A stretch of DNA of 44,522 nucleotides from positions 1 through 44,522 of IMG/VR virus record IMGVR_UViG_3300042923_000179, one strand, 5' to 3'. Source of the stretch: a virus. A model generated the notes under the pieces. The model had not been told where the DNA came from. It searched no databases and worked only from the letters and a program-made list of their open reading frames with translations. Positions 7,158 to 43,956 of this stretch are shown here, piece by piece. Both the position numbers and the translations under genes were made by a program. Every line of letters begins with the position of its first letter. Position 1 is the first letter of the stretch.

Positions 7158-7406
7158 TCACCTCGCCATTATGTCGTTCGGCACGCATGGCGTAGGCTCC
7201 GGGTCGCCGTGGGTGCATAGATGACGGCTCACCTTCCCGCCGTGCAGCTCGACGACAGCCGCCATAACGTCATAAGCCTCGTCAGCGTAAACAGTAAAAC
7301 CTGTTTCGCCGCCCACTTCCACGAGCTCGTATTCATACGGAGCGAGAAGCGAGGCGAGGTCTAGCCCCGCCGCGCTAACGTAGCCTTGCACCACTAGCCG
7401 CGCCAT
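7158..7406 (-). CDS. small hypothetical late protein, 82 aa
   Basis: MARLVVQGYVSAAGLDLASLL; the ATG overlaps the upstream TAA as TAATG. An alpha/beta pattern with a ferredoxin-like order: strand, helix (DLASLLAPY), strand (YELVEVGG), helix (DEAYDVMAAVVELHGG). Cys-His residues near the end (HLCTHGD.. PC) may bind metal. It sits between two fibre-like genes, so a small tail-associated or chaperone role is possible. No family recognised. Confidence 0.65.
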   Translation of the reverse strand: MARLVVQGYVSAAGLDLASLLAPYEYELVEVGGETGFTVYADEAYDVMAAVVELHGGKVSRHLCTHGDPEPTPCVPNDIMAR

Positions 7407-7804
7407 TAGTCGGTTTGCGAGACTTGGAGCGTCCCGGAGGCGATCCGTAGCTCCTCGCCATTCGCGAGTGTTGGCGTGGCGAGCGTCCCGTCGATCCGGA
7501 TGTCGCACCAGTACAGCAGATTGCCCGCCGTCGCCGCGTCCCATACCCCGATGTAGCGCACCGTTGCCCACGCGCCTGTTGCCGTCCATAGGACTTCCGC
7601 GTTCGTCGCCTTAACGCCGGACGCCGCTGCCGCGTGCGTGACCGTCTTCCGGGCGTAGCCGGGACAGTTGACCGTCGTCGCCTCGGTAGCAGGCTGGTCG
7701 GTTGTGAGCCCCGCCGCGTCCGTGAATAGGCCGACGTACTTCGTGCCGACTAGAAGATCGTCGAGCACCTTATTCTCTGCGTAGTTCGATAGCGATCCTG
7801 CCAT
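7406..7804 (-). CDS. phage tail fibre-like protein, 132 aa
   Basis: MAGSLSNYAENKVLDDLLVG, YVGLFTDAAG, YARKTVTH, ATGAWATVRYIGVWDAATAGNLLYW and a terminal SGTLQVSQTD reproduce the full order of a well-known small phage tail fibre/appendage family, in which a 'GLFT ... ATGDWGTVTHFGIFDA' core is diagnostic. All-beta. These proteins are usually found beside fibre and lysis genes and are thought to be virion-associated. ATG start three bases after the amidase stop. Confidence 0.8.
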   Translation of the reverse strand: MAGSLSNYAENKVLDDLLVGTKYVGLFTDAAGLTTDQPATEATTVNCPGYARKTVTHAAAASGVKATNAEVLWTATGAWATVRYIGVWDAATAGNLLYWCDIRIDGTLATPTLANGEELRIASGTLQVSQTD

Positions 7805-7807
7805 GGT

Positions 7808-9268
7808 TTACTTGCCCCCTTTGATAATGTTGTAAAGACGTTGCATGAGAACGAGCTGCCTTTCGATAGTCACCGCTTCACCGAAGCCAAGCGTGCCGTC
7901 CGGCTTGCCCTCGATAAGGTCGATCTTATCCGCCCACTCGATAGCTCCGGCGCTCCAGTGATCGCCCGGCACGTCGGAGAAGATGCCGACAGGCTTCGGC
8001 TTAACAGGCGGCGGGGTGACGGGAGGCTTCGCAGGCAGCGGCTTGTAGGTGATGCCGAAATGATTGCAATAGCCTCGGACGACGCCCTCGACCCACCCGT
8101 CGAATTCGGTCTTGTATTCGACTAGATCGGCGTCCGGTCCCGTGGCCTTGCTGTCGAGGAAGAACAGCTCGACGATCTGCGTCGAGACATTGCCCGTGTC
8201 GCGGTGCATGTAGTAATAGTCGGTCCGCAGCTCCTCGTCGTTCGGGAGCGAACGGCAGAACACTCGGCGGACGTTCTGACCTGCGGCCTTGATCCCGGCG
8301 GCGATCGCATTTGCAAGCTTGCCGTCGTTGTGGATACTGTGGATCACTTCCGCACCGTCTCCGCCGCCTGCGTTAACGTGGATCGACAGGCACGTCTTCG
8401 CGCCGCTATCCTTGACGAGCTTCGCCCGTACCGCTGCCGGAAGCGTCTTGTCTGTGGTGCGCGTCATCGCGACCTTCACACCGTGTTCCCGGAGCCGACT
8501 TGCAATCGTCAGCGAAGCCGCTAGCGTTAGATCCTTCTCGATAATGTGGTCGAGCGGATTCGTTGCGCCCGGATCGCTGCCGCCGTGGCCCGGATCAATC
8601 ACGAGCAGCGGATTCGCATCCCCAAGCAATACGTCTGTATTCATGTCGTACCCCTCCTCGATTACGATTGCCGAACCCATGAGCCTGCCCCACGTCTTCG
8701 GATCGCCTTTCGACCATAGGACGGCAGAGCCGCCGCCATCGCCGTTCAATGCTTTAACGCATCCTAGCGCCTTCATCGCCTGCGCCCATTGCTCCATGCT
8801 GACGGGTTTCTCCGACTTCGCGAAGATGACCTCGCCGCCGGGCATAATCCCGGTCGCCACACGGTACGCGATGCCCGCCCATACGCTGCGATCCGTCTTG
8901 TCGTGCTCGACACTATCGCGCCACACTACGGTGAACATATCGACCAGCAGCGGCGAGCCTTGCGCGGAATAGACGGCCCCGGCTGGAGCTCGTCCGATCC
9001 ACCATTCGCCGCTCGGCAGCATGTAGAGCTCGTTACGGTTCGCGGTCTTCGCCACGTCGCTGACGACGGTCTTCCCGTCCACGATAAGGCGTCCGATAGG
9101 GACGCCCGTCTCGTTGTTGGCGAAGTTGAAATTCATCGCGTGGGCAGCTTTCGTCTCTTCCCCGATGGAACGGATCGTCGCGCCGTTTTTATGTACGACT
9201 CGAATCCCTTTGCGGGCGCGAACGACCTCCATCTTGACGCCTGCACTCGTGATTAGCTGTGAGGTCAT
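7808..9268 (-). CDS. three-domain endolysin: phosphodiester glycosidase-like, amidase_3, SLH-like, 486 aa
   Basis: The N-terminal 215 residues look like the NAGPA/phosphodiester glycosidase fold (AMNFNFANNETG, AIAYRVATG-like core, LNGDGGGSAVLW). The central amidase_3 domain spans about 225-410: VIDPGHGGSDPGA with the zinc His, the catalytic-region Glu in IIEKDLTL, LSIHVNA and VELFFLD. After a proline linker, a single SLH-like repeat (FSDVPGDHWSAGAIEWADK, TIERQLVLMQRL) ends the protein. Amidase_3 cleaves the MurNAc-L-Ala bond. The SLH-like end may bind pyruvylated wall polymer. ATGA overlap with xhlA; the longer TTG start is less likely. Confidence 0.85.
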   Translation of the reverse strand: MTSQLITSAGVKMEVVRARKGIRVVHKNGATIRSIGEETKAAHAMNFNFANNETGVPIGRLIVDGKTVVSDVAKTANRNELYMLPSGEWWIGRAPAGAVYSAQGSPLLVDMFTVVWRDSVEHDKTDRSVWAGIAYRVATGIMPGGEVIFAKSEKPVSMEQWAQAMKALGCVKALNGDGGGSAVLWSKGDPKTWGRLMGSAIVIEEGYDMNTDVLLGDANPLLVIDPGHGGSDPGATNPLDHIIEKDLTLAASLTIASRLREHGVKVAMTRTTDKTLPAAVRAKLVKDSGAKTCLSIHVNAGGGDGAEVIHSIHNDGKLANAIAAGIKAAGQNVRRVFCRSLPNDEELRTDYYYMHRDTGNVSTQIVELFFLDSKATGPDADLVEYKTEFDGWVEGVVRGYCNHFGITYKPLPAKPPVTPPPVKPKPVGIFSDVPGDHWSAGAIEWADKIDLIEGKPDGTLGFGEAVTIERQLVLMQRLYNIIKGGK

Positions 9269-9537
9269 CCGGTCACCAGCTTCCAAACCGTACCGATTGT
9301 GAGGAGGACGATTGCGCTAACAATGGCCCATGACCGATCCTCCATCGTCTTGATCCGGCGTTCGTGTTCCTTCGAGAAGGCGAGCGCCATTTTCGCGATG
9401 TCGTCGGAGGCGTCGAGCTTATCCGCGAGTTTCCCGACACTCGCTGCCATGTCCCGCACCGCAGAGGCCATGTGATCCTGTGTCGTGCTTAGTCGCTCCA
9501 TCTTGAGCTCTAGGGCTCTGCTTGCTTCCTCCGTCAC
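9265..9537 (-). CDS. xhlA: XhlA-type haemolysin/lysis protein, 90 aa
   Basis: A coiled-coil N-terminus (RALELKMERLSTTQDHM ... SVGKLADKLDASDD) is followed by one C-terminal membrane span (about residues 69-88, WAIVSAIVLLTIGTVWKL), the layout of XhlA of Bacillus PBSX-like prophages. XhlA works at the inner face of the membrane with holin and amidase. GTG start (9535-9537). It directly precedes the amidase with a 4-nt overlap, supporting a lysis role. Confidence 0.85.
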   Translation of the reverse strand: MTEEASRALELKMERLSTTQDHMASAVRDMAASVGKLADKLDASDDIAKMALAFSKEHERRIKTMEDRSWAIVSAIVLLTIGTVWKLVTG

Positions 9538-28654: not shown

Positions 28655-28740
28655 GACTCTATCATCCTCTCGAATTTGAATATCGGGCGTATGGCATATG
28701 CGTACGCGCATATATAGGGCACCCCTATTTAACGTACTTT

Positions 28741-28968
28741 TTGTTACGTTATATCCTAATCCTGTTACAACTAACCGCCAAAATAGCCCCTTTATATTTT
28801 ACTCTATTTTATCTGTCCTATCTGCCATATTAATGGTTAATACCTTGGTATGACTGGGTTTTTGGTATGGCAGATGATATGGCAGATGATAGGACAGATA
28901 AAATTTATCTGCCATAGTGTGTGGCAGATGATCTGCCCTATGCCATACGGTCTGCCATATCATCTGCC
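28741..28968. other. candidate replication origin: iterons and AT-rich segment
   Basis: Between primase-helicase and VRR_NUC. The GGCAGAT/ATCTGCC heptamer occurs ten times, some copies with one mismatch. Starts are at 28811, 28820, 28869, 28881, 28893, 28907, 28923, 28931, 28950 and 28962, in both orientations. They include a perfect palindrome GGCAGAT-G-ATCTGCC and CAGATAAA-A-TTTATCTG. The adjacent 28741-28810 is AT-rich with few G-C runs. Iterons plus an AT-rich unwinding segment beside a primase gene are what an origin looks like. They might instead be operators of the VRR_NUC/SNF2 operon; a possible promoter (AGGACA-N17-TATAAA on the minus strand) lies within. Confidence 0.65.
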
Positions 28969-31536
28969 CTATTGCTCTATTCTCTCAAATACCGCCTGTT
29001 TACCATAACCGGGGAAGTAGACGCGCCCAACTTCTCGCCAGCCTTCAATGGACCGAAGGAGCTCACATATGGTACGACCGTCAGCCGGACGCATGTCTCC
29101 CTGTCGCTTTCCGAAGCACTCCACCCATACTTGGATTGCGCATGTCCGGTCTCGCGTAATGCCCATAGGGAATCCCTTGTCGTCGGTGCGCTCCTCGTCC
29201 ATCCATTCCTCAATCATGCCGACCCGGTCATCCTTCTCAACGTGTCCGGCCTGCATCTTGGCGATCGTCTGCGCGAGCTCGGCAGGCGGTTCTAGGCTCT
29301 CGCCCGAACGGTACGCCGCGACGGCCTCGGCCCATAGAAGACCGATCTCCTCGTTCAGATCGTCGAAGACGTTTAGCTTCCGCTTGCTCGGATCGACCGG
29401 GACAGGCCAGAAACGACGGTTCCCTGTGGCATCCTTCAGAAAGTTGTGGTTGTTCGTCGTGCCGAAGAAGACACACTTTCGCGGGAAGTCCGAAACGGTA
29501 CGATCATAGGCGACGCGGTACTTGTCCGACCGCTTCGATAGAAACTGTTTGATCTCCTCGACCTCGACCCGGTTCATGCCTGCTAGCTCGCCAAACTCGA
29601 ATAGCCAAGCAGACTGAAGATGCTCGCCCGCTTCCTTGCTCTCCAGACTCTTCAGCGAATCGGAGAACCAGTCCATACCCATCTTCTGCAAGATAGTCGA
29701 CTTGTGCGCACCTTGAGGTCCGATCAAGACAAGCATATTATCGAATTTGCACCCCGGCTCATAGAGACGCTTGACCGCTGCGATGAACATCTTCTTCGTC
29801 ACGCACCTTGTATAATCGCTATCCTCCGCCCCAAGGTAATCAATGAAGAGGCGCTCCAGCCGCCCCACCCCGTCCCACTTCTGCGCTTCGAGGTAATCAA
29901 TGATCGGATGGAAACGATGCTGTCTTGTGACCTCCGTGAAAGCTTGCTTAATAACCTGCGTATTCGCTATACCATGTACCTTAGCGAACCAGTGATTCCG
30001 GCGGTCGTCATCCTCCCCCAGCCAAGGCTCATAAGGTGCATCAGGTGCCCGGCGATCACGCCACGGAAGCGCACGCTTAATAACTTCTCGATTCCCGAAG
30101 CCATCATAAGCCAGCGTGCCCTTCCACTTTCCATTGTTAAGCAGCAGCTCGACGTTGCCCGCTGTCGGCAGCAGCGCCCCGGTCTTGCTATGCCGCTCTA
30201 GCTCTTGCGCCCATGCTTTTGGATCAGCCACGCCGCCGTCAGCACTAGCCCCGCCAGCAGGCTTAGACAGCCCCACACCGGGAGAGTCATCGCCACGTAA
30301 TACACCGCCACCAGCACGACCGTCTGCGCCCCGATCACTATCAGAATCGCCGCCGCTATCCTCATCGTCTCCCAAAAGCGCTCGAAGTCCCGCTTCCTCA
30401 TCTCGCTCATTTCCTCTCTCGTCTTCCTTATCTCGTCCAGCCCTTCTTTCGTCTTCAGCTTGTTCAACTCCTTCCCCGTCCTCCTCGAAATCCTCGTCAC
30501 CGAAATCCTCCATCGCCGCCAGCCGTTTCACTTCCGGGAGCGACATGACCCATATGCACATAGCATCGAAGCTCGGGCGCTTGGCGTCCGGCGTGCCGTC
30601 CTTAATCCCCTCGTCATGCTCCCCGAATAGGTGGATGCGCACGAGGTCAAACAGGTTATGCGTCCGCCCGTCTGATACAGGGTCGCTGTCTTGGTGCGAG
30701 AACGCGAGGTCTTGTTCCGGGTACACTTCTAGCCCGTTGCCGCTCGTGCCCGGTAGGTACGTGTAGCGCCCCGGCATGCTGCCTTGATCGTATTGATCGG
30801 TGAGGAACGTTTCGATGCCCTCCTCGATCGTGAACGCCCGGCAGAACAGGCCGACCGCGCCGAACTTCTCCCGTGGGTCTTGCGCCTTCGTTAGGTTAAG
30901 ATTGACGCGGCCCTCGTTTGGATGCCGAGGCCAGCTTAGAACGTCCAAAGCGTCCTCGTAGGTTTCGAGAACGTCATCAACGACGAGCGGGACGCCCTCA
31001 CCCTCGATACTTACCGGGTCGGCGTCCTTTGAGCAGCTCGGGAAATACATCAGACGATGGACATGGAACGTCGTGCCGTCGAAGTTGTCCATGCCGATCC
31101 ATTCCGCCACGCGGCGGCTCACGGCGGCGTATTCGTCGACAGACATCGCCCGGTCGACCGGGATCACGAGGCGGTACTTCGGCGCGCTCTCCCGGTGCGA
31201 GTGGGTCGAGTAGATGAAGTAGGCCGTGCCGCCGAGCATAAGCTCGACGGTGCCGGGGAAGTCTATGGATGGCGTGTCCGCGTCCAAGGTGATCAGCGTC
31301 CGGTTGTCGACGTTCTCCTTCTTCCGCCGCCCACCCCGGAGAAGCCCGCCAACAAACGACGGGCCGTCCTTTACCTTTCCGCGATCGGCCTTGCTCATTG
31401 CGTCATAGCTCGACATGGTCTCCGGCGTCCGGCGTACCTTGCGGAAGCGCTCGACCAACTCCTCCCAGCTTAGGTACTCGGTCTTCCATGTCTTGTCTTG
31501 TCGGTGCTTCCCGAGTGATATGTCAATATGATCCAT
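28969..31536 (-). CDS. AEP primase - VapE/VirE-type helicase fusion, 855 aa
   Basis: N-terminal archaeo-eukaryotic primase-like region: LITLDADTPS (about 83-92) and SAPKYRLVIPVDR with the metal-binding pattern. A long acidic/low-complexity linker (about 340-445) follows. The VapE-like helicase then runs to the end: LIGPQGAHKST (Walker A about 600-610, with His in place of the usual second Gly), WLFEFGEL (Walker B), FFGTTNNHNFL and GNRRFWPV. Primes and unwinds at the origin. An out-of-frame membrane protein gene is nested in the linker (30198-30500). Confidence 0.9.
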   Translation of the reverse strand: MDHIDISLGKHRQDKTWKTEYLSWEELVERFRKVRRTPETMSSYDAMSKADRGKVKDGPSFVGGLLRGGRRKKENVDNRTLITLDADTPSIDFPGTVELMLGGTAYFIYSTHSHRESAPKYRLVIPVDRAMSVDEYAAVSRRVAEWIGMDNFDGTTFHVHRLMYFPSCSKDADPVSIEGEGVPLVVDDVLETYEDALDVLSWPRHPNEGRVNLNLTKAQDPREKFGAVGLFCRAFTIEEGIETFLTDQYDQGSMPGRYTYLPGTSGNGLEVYPEQDLAFSHQDSDPVSDGRTHNLFDLVRIHLFGEHDEGIKDGTPDAKRPSFDAMCIWVMSLPEVKRLAAMEDFGDEDFEEDGEGVEQAEDERRAGRDKEDERGNERDEEAGLRALLGDDEDSGGDSDSDRGADGRAGGGVLRGDDSPGVGLSKPAGGASADGGVADPKAWAQELERHSKTGALLPTAGNVELLLNNGKWKGTLAYDGFGNREVIKRALPWRDRRAPDAPYEPWLGEDDDRRNHWFAKVHGIANTQVIKQAFTEVTRQHRFHPIIDYLEAQKWDGVGRLERLFIDYLGAEDSDYTRCVTKKMFIAAVKRLYEPGCKFDNMLVLIGPQGAHKSTILQKMGMDWFSDSLKSLESKEAGEHLQSAWLFEFGELAGMNRVEVEEIKQFLSKRSDKYRVAYDRTVSDFPRKCVFFGTTNNHNFLKDATGNRRFWPVPVDPSKRKLNVFDDLNEEIGLLWAEAVAAYRSGESLEPPAELAQTIAKMQAGHVEKDDRVGMIEEWMDEERTDDKGFPMGITRDRTCAIQVWVECFGKRQGDMRPADGRTICELLRSIEGWREVGRVYFPGYGKQAVFERIEQ
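30198..30500 (-). CDS. nested two-span membrane protein, overprinted in the primase linker, 100 aa
   Basis: Same strand as the primase, other frame. GTG start (30498-30500) with GGAGG six bases upstream (GGAGGATTTCGGTG), an ideal ribosome site. A charged helix (KLKTKEGLDEIRKTREEMSE) is followed by two membrane spans (about 47-69, AAAILIVIGAQTVVLVAVYY; about 72-93, VWGCLSLLAGLVLTAAWLI) and a basic end. Codon third positions in this frame are strongly G/C, as in the rest of the genome. The primase frame in the same stretch is T-rich at third positions and encodes only a low-complexity linker, so the nested frame looks like the selected one. TAG at 30198. Role unknown; a holin-like or superinfection factor is a guess. 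Confidence 0.6.
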   Translation of the reverse strand: MTRISRRTGKELNKLKTKEGLDEIRKTREEMSEMRKRDFERFWETMRIAAAILIVIGAQTVVLVAVYYVAMTLPVWGCLSLLAGLVLTAAWLIQKHGRKS

Positions 31537-34355: not shown

Positions 34356-34631
34356 TTATAATTTCAAGTTGGTCGAGCCTTCCGCTTTTAGAACGCGGCA
34401 CGCTTCCTCTATCTGTTCCCGATCGATGCTCGTCTTCACGTCGTTCACGTTGTAGCTCACGACCGGACCGCACATGTCCTCATTGGTACGGTCCGGGAGA
34501 CGGCAACCCATCCTGCGGGGCGAAGCGTACCTCGGCTCCCGTGCCTCTTCGTCATAGCGATCGTAGTCGATCCCGCTCCCGGCAATCCGGCCTTGACTCC
34601 GCAACCCTTCATAGGGTCTACGCTTTGTCAT
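34356..34631 (-). CDS. small hypothetical protein, 91 aa
   Basis: MTKRRPYEGLRSQGRIAGSG; overlaps the upstream gene's end by 14 nt and is separated from the next gene by 28 bp. Basic and low in structure in the first half (ARE.PRYASPRRMG), with a helical end (IDREQIEEACRVLKAEG). Two cysteines (C43, C54) are in the middle. No family recognised. Confidence 0.65.
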   Translation of the reverse strand: MTKRRPYEGLRSQGRIAGSGIDYDRYDEEAREPRYASPRRMGCRLPDRTNEDMCGPVVSYNVNDVKTSIDREQIEEACRVLKAEGSTNLKL

Positions 34632-34884
34632 CTTTCGCCCGCTCCTTCCAATAGCTCTCCCATTTCGTCATGACCGCTATCACAATGGCGACCGCCACCC
34701 ATGCGAGGCAGAGCACAAGGAGATAGCCTAGCCGGATCGCCAGCAGCGCCCAAAACGGGAGCGTCACGAGCCACCATGACCAGTCAATAAAGCCCGTCAG
34801 CTTCAGCGCGACGAACAGTACGCCGAGTAGCCCGGCGACCGTGAGACCGCCGCCCTTCGTCTTCTCCTTCTTGTTCATCCGCAT
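34618..34884 (-). CDS. transmembrane Fragile-X-F-type protein, 88 aa
   Basis: MRMNKKEKTKGGGLTVAGLL, then VLFVALKLTGFIDWSWWLVTLPFWALLAI and a second span (LGYLLVLCLAWVAVAIVIAV). The KLTG-I-WSWWLV motif followed by PFWALLAI is the 'Fragile-X-F' membrane protein seen in phages and bacteria; two spans with a cytosolic Lys-rich end. Function unknown. The ATG overlaps the polymerase stop (TGATG). Confidence 0.8.
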   Translation of the reverse strand: MRMNKKEKTKGGGLTVAGLLGVLFVALKLTGFIDWSWWLVTLPFWALLAIRLGYLLVLCLAWVAVAIVIAVMTKWESYWKERAKDDKA

Positions 34885-36851
34885 CAGTCCTTTTGGTAGA
34901 ATGTACACTCGAACCCTTCAGCCGTAAGCGGCAGACCCGGAGCCCATGGGATCGGCTCGCTCATGATCCGCGTGATTTCCTCGATATCGGCGTCGGCGCT
35001 GTCGATGATAATTTCATCATGGACGTGCATGACGATATCGTACCCGGCGGCATCCAGCCGCATCATGGCGACCGCAAGACAATCACGGGCGATCGCTTGG
35101 ACGAAATTCTCGACGAGCGTCCCGCCCCATGTTCTATGCTTGACCCATTGCCCTGTTTGCTGGTCCTTGCCCATGAAGGTCAGCTCGTCGCCACCGAAAT
35201 TCTTGTTCGGCTCAAGCCGTGGCGATTGATAGGCGAGGCTTCGACCGCTCGGCAGACTCGCGAGCAGCACGTCGCCTTGCATACGGTACGAAACGCCGTG
35301 CCCGACTTGGATCGGCTTGACGCTTTTCTTCCGTACCGCCTCAATCGCGGCCCGCTCAACCCGCTTCCATAGCCGGGCAATCTGCGCGTTCGCCGTGCGC
35401 CAGTCTTTCACGATGTCGCCTAGCTCGTCCTCCGTCAGCCCGTCCCGCAGCGCTCCCATTTTAATCAGCGCATTCACGCCGCCGCCGAAGCCGCAAGCCA
35501 GCACCGCGATCTTCCCCTTGGGCCGGAGATAGTCGTTCTCCTCGCCCTTGACGATGGTCTGCCACGGCACGCCGTACATTTGCGCGGCGGTCGCTTCGTA
35601 TATCTTCCCGTGCGTTCGGAATACCTCTAGCACCCACTCCTCGTCCGCCACCCACGCGATGACCCGCGCCTCGATCGCCGCGAAGTCGTCGACCACGAAC
35701 CGACCGGACGCCGGGATAAAGGCGGTACGAACGAGCTGCGACAGGATGAACGGCGGCGCGCCGTAAAGCAGCTCCAGCAGGTCATGCTCGCCTTCCCGGA
35801 GCGTCTGCCGGGCGAGCGCCAAGTCCTTGACCTTGTTCTGCGGAAGGTTCTGGACTTGGATGAGCCGCCCGGCCCACCTCCACGTACGCCCCGCCCCGAG
35901 GAACTCCAGCAGGCCATGGGCTCGACCGTTCCGGCAGAGTGCCCGGCGCATGGCGTCGTACTTGTCGACGCTCGTCTTGCCGAGCTCGCCCCGGATGCGC
36001 AGCACCTCGCGCACGTCTTCCCGGCCTAGCTTCATCGCCTCGGCGGCTAGCGCGGGCATGGACTCCTTCGTGATGCCGTCCGGCGTCGGGATGCCTTGAT
36101 CATGTAACCACGCCTTGAGCTGCGGCAGCGCGTTCGGATTATCGAGGCCCGTAAGTTCGCCTTGACGCTCCAGCAGCTCCAGCTTGTACGCCTCGGCGCA
36201 TTCGATGGCGGATAAGAATAGCGTCTCGTCCAACTTCACGCCCCGGTCGTTGATCCGCTGGTCGAGCGCCCAAAGCTTCCATTCGAAGTCCGGGATCTTG
36301 TACGGCGCGAGTCGCTTCGAGACCTCACGCTCGACGACGACGTCTTGCCGACAATACTCGATGTATTGCTGCCACTTCTCCGGCGCATGATGCGGCTCGT
36401 TCCTCTCCCGCCAGCCGTTCGCCTTCGACGGCTTGCACGGACAAGAGAAGTATTTGATTAGCGCCTTGCCTTTCGAATCCTTTTGGTCATCCAGACCGAG
36501 CACCTTAGCGGCCCGTGCCAAGTCATTAGGCAGGCCGAGAGCGGCGGCGTGGACTTTCGTGCATCGCCACTGGAGCGGATCGCAGTATATGCCGAAGTGC
36601 TTCCCGATCGTGAGCCGCTCGAAGTTGGCGTTGAACGCCGTCTTGATGACGCTCGGGTCGGTGAGTGCCTGCATGACCTCGTCCGGCACCGCCTCGAAGT
36701 CTGTTAAGTCAATGATGTTAACGGGGCCGTCGTCGAAAGCGTAGCCGAAGAGGAGAATCTCGAAGTCGTCCGAGTCAACGTACTTATACGCGCCGTGGTC
36801 TTTGATGTCGATGGAGCTGTATGTCTCGACGTCGATTCTAAGTATGGTCAT
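34884..36851 (-). CDS. family A DNA polymerase with 3'-5' exonuclease, 655 aa
   Basis: Exonuclease motifs: LRIDVETYSS (exo I, about 4-13), FNANFERL (exo II, about 75-82) and YCRQDVVVE (exo III, about 166-174). Polymerase motifs: DDFAAIEARVIAWVAD (motif A, Asp and Arg), LRPKGKIAVLACGFGGG (motif B, Lys; CGFGG in place of YGFGG) and MHVHDEII (motif C). The enzyme replicates phage DNA. It follows a short 85-residue gene in ATGA overlap, part of the DUF2800-DUF2815-PolA block. Confidence 0.97.
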   Translation of the reverse strand: MTILRIDVETYSSIDIKDHGAYKYVDSDDFEILLFGYAFDDGPVNIIDLTDFEAVPDEVMQALTDPSVIKTAFNANFERLTIGKHFGIYCDPLQWRCTKVHAAALGLPNDLARAAKVLGLDDQKDSKGKALIKYFSCPCKPSKANGWRERNEPHHAPEKWQQYIEYCRQDVVVEREVSKRLAPYKIPDFEWKLWALDQRINDRGVKLDETLFLSAIECAEAYKLELLERQGELTGLDNPNALPQLKAWLHDQGIPTPDGITKESMPALAAEAMKLGREDVREVLRIRGELGKTSVDKYDAMRRALCRNGRAHGLLEFLGAGRTWRWAGRLIQVQNLPQNKVKDLALARQTLREGEHDLLELLYGAPPFILSQLVRTAFIPASGRFVVDDFAAIEARVIAWVADEEWVLEVFRTHGKIYEATAAQMYGVPWQTIVKGEENDYLRPKGKIAVLACGFGGGVNALIKMGALRDGLTEDELGDIVKDWRTANAQIARLWKRVERAAIEAVRKKSVKPIQVGHGVSYRMQGDVLLASLPSGRSLAYQSPRLEPNKNFGGDELTFMGKDQQTGQWVKHRTWGGTLVENFVQAIARDCLAVAMMRLDAAGYDIVMHVHDEIIIDSADADIEEITRIMSEPIPWAPGLPLTAEGFECTFYQKD

Positions 36852-43618: not shown

Positions 43619-43744
43619 TCATAGAAAGATCCCGATGATAGCCGTGGCGAGCGGTGCGGCTACAGCCTGCGAAAAAATCACGCAAGCGATCACGCCAAGC
43701 ACCGCAGCCGTTCCAACTAAACCCCATGCGACGACGTCCGTCAT
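43619..43744 (-). CDS. small membrane protein, 41 aa
   Basis: MTDVVAWGLVGTAAVLGVIA continues to about residue 41, two hydrophobic stretches (7-24, 27-41). The ATG overlaps the upstream stop by 4 nt. Longer in-frame starts add a basic segment but no ribosome site. Third gene of the par-linked operon. Similar small spans occur near plasmid conjugation or partition genes; no family recognised. Confidence 0.65.
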   Translation of the reverse strand: MTDVVAWGLVGTAAVLGVIACVIFSQAVAAPLATAIIGIFL

Positions 43745-43956
43745 ATCCTCACCCCAAACGTCGAGGCGATGTACTTGACGCCTTGCCACCAGTATTCCAT
43801 GGCGATCATGCCGCACGCCACATAGGTAATCACTCGAACGAATATAACCTTATTCCCGTGCCCGTGGTCTTCCATCAACCGACCAACAAACTCACTTGCG
43901 ATTGCAATCCCCGCTATCTTGATAGCTGGAGCAAGCACCCCGATTGTTACGATCAT
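43741..43956 (-). CDS. small two-span membrane protein, 71 aa
   Basis: MIVTIGVLAPAIKIAGIAIA (span 1, about 2-22) followed by a charged loop (EFVGRLMEDHGHGNK) and VIFVRVITYVACGMIAMEYW (span 2, about 37-56). The ATG overlaps the ParR-like stop by 4 nt. Could anchor the partition complex to the membrane or be unrelated; inference only. Confidence 0.7.
   Translation of the reverse strand: MIVTIGVLAPAIKIAGIAIASEFVGRLMEDHGHGNKVIFVRVITYVACGMIAMEYWWQGVKYIASTFGVRI

Follow-up and report, generated by a model that had tools for sequence, protein, structure and literature searches.

Within the primase-helicase gene of a phage described as Paenibacillus-type (44.5-kb IMG/VR virus record IMGVR_UViG_3300042923_000179), the segment encoding the linker contains a second open reading frame (ORF) on the same strand, which raises the questions whether this nested frame is a gene and how two frames came to share the same bases. 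An earlier note on this DNA had described a membrane-protein gene overprinted on the primase, with selection acting on the nested frame and the linker as its by-product. Analysis of the complete record (44,522 nucleotides; hereafter, the window) indicates that the nested frame is probably a functional second gene within the primase-helicase linker, that is, a case of dual coding (probability about 0.6). The features involved are the following.

28969-31536, minus strand: host gene, primase-helicase, 855 aa (phrog_256, E 5e-266; PF05272, E 4e-81)
30198-30500, minus strand: nested ORF, 100 aa, +1 to the primase frame (GTG start 30500-30498, TAG stop 30200-30198)
30507-30511, minus strand: putative Shine-Dalgarno sequence GGAGG, 6-base spacer to the GTG (duplex -9.3 kcal/mol)
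30369-30476, minus strand: charged amphipathic, possibly coiled-coil helix, residues 9-44 (from sequence; AlphaFold single-sequence helix H18-97)
30291-30359, minus strand: predicted membrane span 1, residues 48-70 (hydropathy)
30219-30278, minus strand: predicted membrane span 2, residues 75-94, then the basic C-terminus KHGRKS (hydropathy)
30216-30473, minus strand: maximal segment favoring the nested over the primase frame (log-likelihood ratio, LLR, +30.9; 86 codons)

The host gene and the nested reading frame

The primase-helicase carries the VapE domain (PF05272) at amino acids 549-765; its nearest annotated relatives, from Brevibacillus and Paenibacillus phages, are 55% identical, and the nearest relatives in IMG/VR and genomes are 60-66% identical. 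An AlphaFold model of the primase from 7 sequences is poor (mean pLDDT 48.9), and the lowest confidence, at residues 390-430, fits a disordered linker but proves nothing. In the spacer between this gene and the VRR-NUC gene (28712-28968), TATGGCAGATG/ATCTGCCATA units recur in either orientation, with long inverted arms; these repeats are iteron-like and could possibly represent a replication origin or a regulatory site. At this position, a gap of roughly 270-340 bp is present in the annotated relatives L001-L004 as well.

The 100-codon length of the nested frame, its GTG and the GGAGG six bases upstream are all as the earlier note had described them. The putative ribosome-binding site and its accessibility resemble those of real genes: the local mfe at the nested start is -8.8, compared to means of -9.6 for genes and -14.9 for internal ATG or GTG codons, and 1.8% of the latter reach both the duplex and the mfe levels of the nested start. 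Internal GGAGG motifs followed by a start codon are present elsewhere in the phage as well. Translation of the nested frame could also be imagined to result from ribosomes shifting into it, which would yield a fusion of the primase N-terminal domain with a membrane tail. Upstream of the GTG, the nested frame indeed contains no stop for about 9 codons, leaving a short window for such a shift, but inspection of these codons by eye revealed no +1 slippery codon pair, and the independent start site is good; we regard frameshifting as very improbable.

The encoded protein consists of a basic/charged N-terminal helix (residues 1-47) and two hydrophobic segments, both within a 47-residue uncharged run (I48-Q94), with 19-residue Kyte-Doolittle maxima of 2.68 and 2.03, in agreement with the two membrane spans predicted earlier. 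The coiled coil that had been proposed for the N-terminal part is better described as a possible one, being suggested by a charged helical pattern and by the long helix of a single-sequence AlphaFold model (pLDDT 84.6, pTM.42) that gives no fold information. The product would be a 100-residue inner-membrane protein in which a basic, helical N-terminus precedes a membrane hairpin of two helices with a tight Thr-Leu-Pro turn, and both protein ends would probably be cytoplasmic. We infer that the nested ORF is translated, presumably from the early replication mRNA through independent initiation at the internal GTG; the full primase-helicase would be made alongside, with the same bases read as a disordered acidic linker.

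Codon statistics of the two frames

For the same bases, the nested frame has a GC content of.515/.416/.832 at its three codon positions and the primase frame one of.832/.515/.416, compared with about.60/.41/.73 in other genes of the phage. The nested-minus-primase codon log-likelihood over the 100 codons is +22.9; the other genes of the phage yield 13,036 alternative-frame windows with a mean of -69 (sd 16) and a maximum of +2.5, a comparison subject to selection bias given that the finding was picked from 44 kb. The maximal signal (30473-30216) lies within the nested start and stop codons. The best of the other windows is located at the doubtful start of ORF 7158-7589, where codon scores put the first part in the wrong frame at the overlap with 7406-7804 (PF23140); the true start of this ORF is probably downstream.

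The relative synonymous codon usage (RSCU) of the nested frame correlates with that of the phage at.59, whereas the primase linker gives a correlation of -.28. T-ending codons account for 34% of the primase linker, 14% of the genome and 7% of the nested frame, confirming the T-rich primase third positions reported earlier. Plain codon counts, which include the amino acid composition, give no significant separation of the two frames (r.56 vs.34, p.15). The argument from the GC3 of the nested frame carries only part of the weight that the earlier note had placed on it. The value is high indeed, but the nested third positions (68% G and 15% C, compared to 37% and 36% in the phage, and a maximum of 54% G in 100-codon windows of other genes) are G-rich because the same bases serve as the first positions of primase codons for Asp, Glu, Gly and Ala, and GC3 alone is therefore confounded. 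The real evidence is the T/A-rich third positions of the primase, which the primase itself does not explain.

Three null models were applied to the region. With the primase protein held and the codons redrawn from phage usage (20,000 redraws), the nested frame stays open in 34% of the synonymous redraws; the open frame and its length are by themselves unremarkable. The nested LLR in these redraws has a mean of -31 (sd 8.6), and none of the 20,000 reaches the observed +21.8; two membrane spans appear in 5e-5 of the redraws and the 47-residue uncharged run in none (0/20,000). When the linker's own synonymous codons are permuted, an open frame with two spans persists in 0.7% of the permutations. 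Conversely, with the nested protein held, the primase frame remains open in 7.6% of the cases, and acidic residues amount to 15.5 +/- 2.7% of its translation, compared to 32% (D+E) observed, a level that is reached in 0 of 5,000 trials. Given these three results, neither frame alone accounts for the DNA and both appear to shape the region. Thus, the description of the linker as a by-product turns out to be half right: the acidity of the primase frame exceeds the nested-only expectation, and therefore this frame looks constrained, too.

The converse explanation is that the acidic linker grew by low-complexity repeats with unusual Asp, Gly and Ser codons, the hydrophobic frame being an accident of GAT, GGT and AGT. 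T-ending codons for these amino acids do read as Ile, Val or Met in the +1 frame, the nested GC3 follows from G-starting codons, and the coil half contains a weak 14-base period (3.1 copies). Nevertheless, permutation of the linker's own codons destroys the feature in >99% of the trials, the residue entropy of the nested protein is higher than that of the primase linker (3.96 vs 3.26 bits), and Glu is altogether absent from the membrane half of the linker. The relatives of the primase bear on the same explanation from both sides. Acidic linkers are general in the family, with a mean of 42% D+E in the closer relatives, but none of the approximately 250 homologous primases has a hydrophobic span in the alternative frame at the linker. 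Furthermore, in 83 GC-rich relatives, the GC3 of the linker is the same as elsewhere in the gene (mean difference -.016, sd.10), compared to -.276 here. Taken with this evidence, growth of the linker by repeats appears to be an improbable origin of the nested frame.

A lineage-specific expansion of the linker

The linker (primase residues 322 to 460) spans 139 aa here, compared to mostly 55-74 aa in 165 homologs, and a further 86 primase sequences, which partly come from the same phages as the earlier homolog set, agree on a short linker with the exception of L213. The expansion of about 74 aa, which is missing in the relatives, coincides with the nested ORF and occupies about the same place as the maximal segment 30216-30473. 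No relatives with the same linker but with stops in the nested frame were found among these sequences, given that the relatives lack both the expansion and the nested protein altogether. The alternative frame is open across the segment in 15 of the 166 primases, a count that includes the window. High alternative-frame scores in L134, L025, L161, L164 and L100 were dismissed as artefacts of upstream extensions or, in L100, of a broken frame. Two distant homologs, L092 and L213 (from Clostridium sulfidigenes and an IMG/VR contig), have independently long, charged linkers, that of L213 being lysine- and glutamate-rich, without a hydrophobic alternative frame.

The search for homologs of the nested protein produced no match above the cut-off in PDB, Pfam, PHROGs or NCBIfam, only weak, composition-driven ones, including Pfam matches to 8xMP and presenilin that fall below the gathering cut-offs (21.6 vs 30 and 19.7 vs 34.3 bits, respectively). 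A tblastn search of phages and plasmids gave no match, pattern scans of IMG/VR gave none that was confirmed, and a search of 105 genomes of the family and 399 genomes of the order detected no homolog; five weak order-level matches (best E 3e-4 per genome, 399 genomes) were discarded as chance similarities to parts of unrelated larger membrane proteins or to broken frames. Comparison of the nested region to Rfam gave no match, and thus neither a known RNA element nor an intron. Two ordinary small membrane ORFs of the window that served as controls (34618-34908 and 43741-43956) are equally without convincing homologs in the phage collection, and therefore the orphan status says little against the nested gene. 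The first of these encodes a 96-aa protein with three spans and slightly overlaps the 3' end of the DNA polymerase gene (34884-36851, minus strand), and the second, near the end of the window, is one of two overlapping small membrane ORFs at 43619-43956 (the other being 43619-43816). The antisense ORF 30116-30766(+) was rejected as a gene, being a low-complexity Ser/Pro complement of the GA-rich linker.

Self-BLAST showed that the insert was not copied from another part of the phage, and blastn of the region against phages returned one weak 94-base match (E 0.1); no donor sequence was found. These results bear on the main rival of dual coding, namely, out-of-frame insertion into the linker of a membrane-protein gene fragment that is no longer translated and whose start and stop are accidental. 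The expansion is lineage-specific, and a codon signature would last for a while after such an event. Moreover, neither end of the nested ORF needs an inserted gene: the GTG falls in a short acidic 'EDFGDE' motif that is common to the relatives in the primase frame, although most of these have GGC or an Ala codon at this site and hence no GTG, and the nested stop is at 'ELE', adjoining a conserved Trp of the primase. Against this explanation, the frame is intact over 100 codons and is preceded by a good, accessible ribosome site, the acidity of the primase together with the extreme third-position G of the nested frame suggests that the region has undergone tuning for both frames over some time, and a donor is missing. 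Accordingly, we consider such a relic unlikely.

Origin of the overlap

The simplest reading that the data suggest is dual coding, the nested frame being better adapted than the primase frame: a long ORF is present inside a known gene, with an excess of coding signal and with start signals of its own. The nulls in which the primase was kept fixed, the ribosome site and the match in position with the lineage-specific insertion all favor selection on the nested frame, as claimed in the earlier note. The term 'overprinted', however, may have the direction wrong. De novo overprinting would be expected to leave the inner frame less genome-like than the outer one, and the opposite was found; given its genome-like codon usage, the inner frame appears to be the older one, so that in terms of codon genealogy the nested frame would be native and the primase reading new. 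The codon genealogy and the lineage-specific expansion together favor entry of DNA followed by primase read-through, and we infer entry of coding DNA into the linker rather than birth from primase sequence. In this scenario, DNA coding in the nested frame would have entered the hypervariable linker, after which the primase frame would have been tuned around it. A more specific version, put forward tentatively and at less than even odds, is that a small gene for a membrane protein entered the linker intact or almost intact, and that the primase kept its own, different frame open across this guest.

If true, overlap by insertion and read-through would differ from a new gene born in an old one, and a guest gene tolerated by an essential enzyme within its hypervariable linker would represent a second route to overlapping genes besides overprinting. 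Standard annotation misses fully nested same-strand genes, and more of these may hide in unusually long disordered linkers with off synonymous codons; the two-direction codon-redraw test is applicable to any such linker.

Possible function and comparison with known systems

By analogy with other small phage membrane proteins, our best guess is that the nested gene encodes an early accessory protein acting at the membrane. Its role could be to tether replication, to act on the host envelope or to counter superinfecting phages, and the sequence gives no basis for preferring one of these. The nested protein shows no match to a holin family above the cut-off, and its ORF belongs to the replication region; a recognisable holin (PF16079, 5557-5817) is encoded in the lysis region of the phage, which makes a lysis role unlikely. 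At a distance from this holin gene, ORF 9265-9537, adjoining the endolysin gene (7808-9286), encodes a coiled coil and a single span in an XhlA-like layout.

Among VapE-type phage primase-helicases (phrog_256, PF05272), the host gene is an ordinary member, except that its linker exceeds that of nearly all relatives and has the nested frame inside. Nested membrane genes of phages are a kind already known, but the direction would be unusual if the insertion reading holds. In phiX174, gene E is nested in gene D, the T in the third positions of the outer frame becoming the second position of the inner frame and specifying hydrophobic residues, and the frame with genome-like codons has been argued to be the older one (PMC8227390). 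As in the present case, a small membrane protein is encoded entirely within another gene, on the same strand but in a shifted frame. In phiX174, however, the outer frame D is genome-like, T-rich and ancestral, whereas in the present case it is the inner frame that is genome-like, the outer one being anomalous; furthermore, E is a lysis protein, whereas the phage analyzed here has its own holin. In Pseudomonas phage Fc02, the overlapping small genes olg1 and gene 10 have exclusion activity (PMC9936078), which could, by analogy, be a function of the nested protein as well, although these genes are located by the repressor and no sequence relationship is expected. Finally, p1 and p16.7 of phi29 are small early membrane proteins for which replication tethering has been proposed (PMC4974454); they are not nested and no homology to the nested protein was found, so the analogy would be one of function only.
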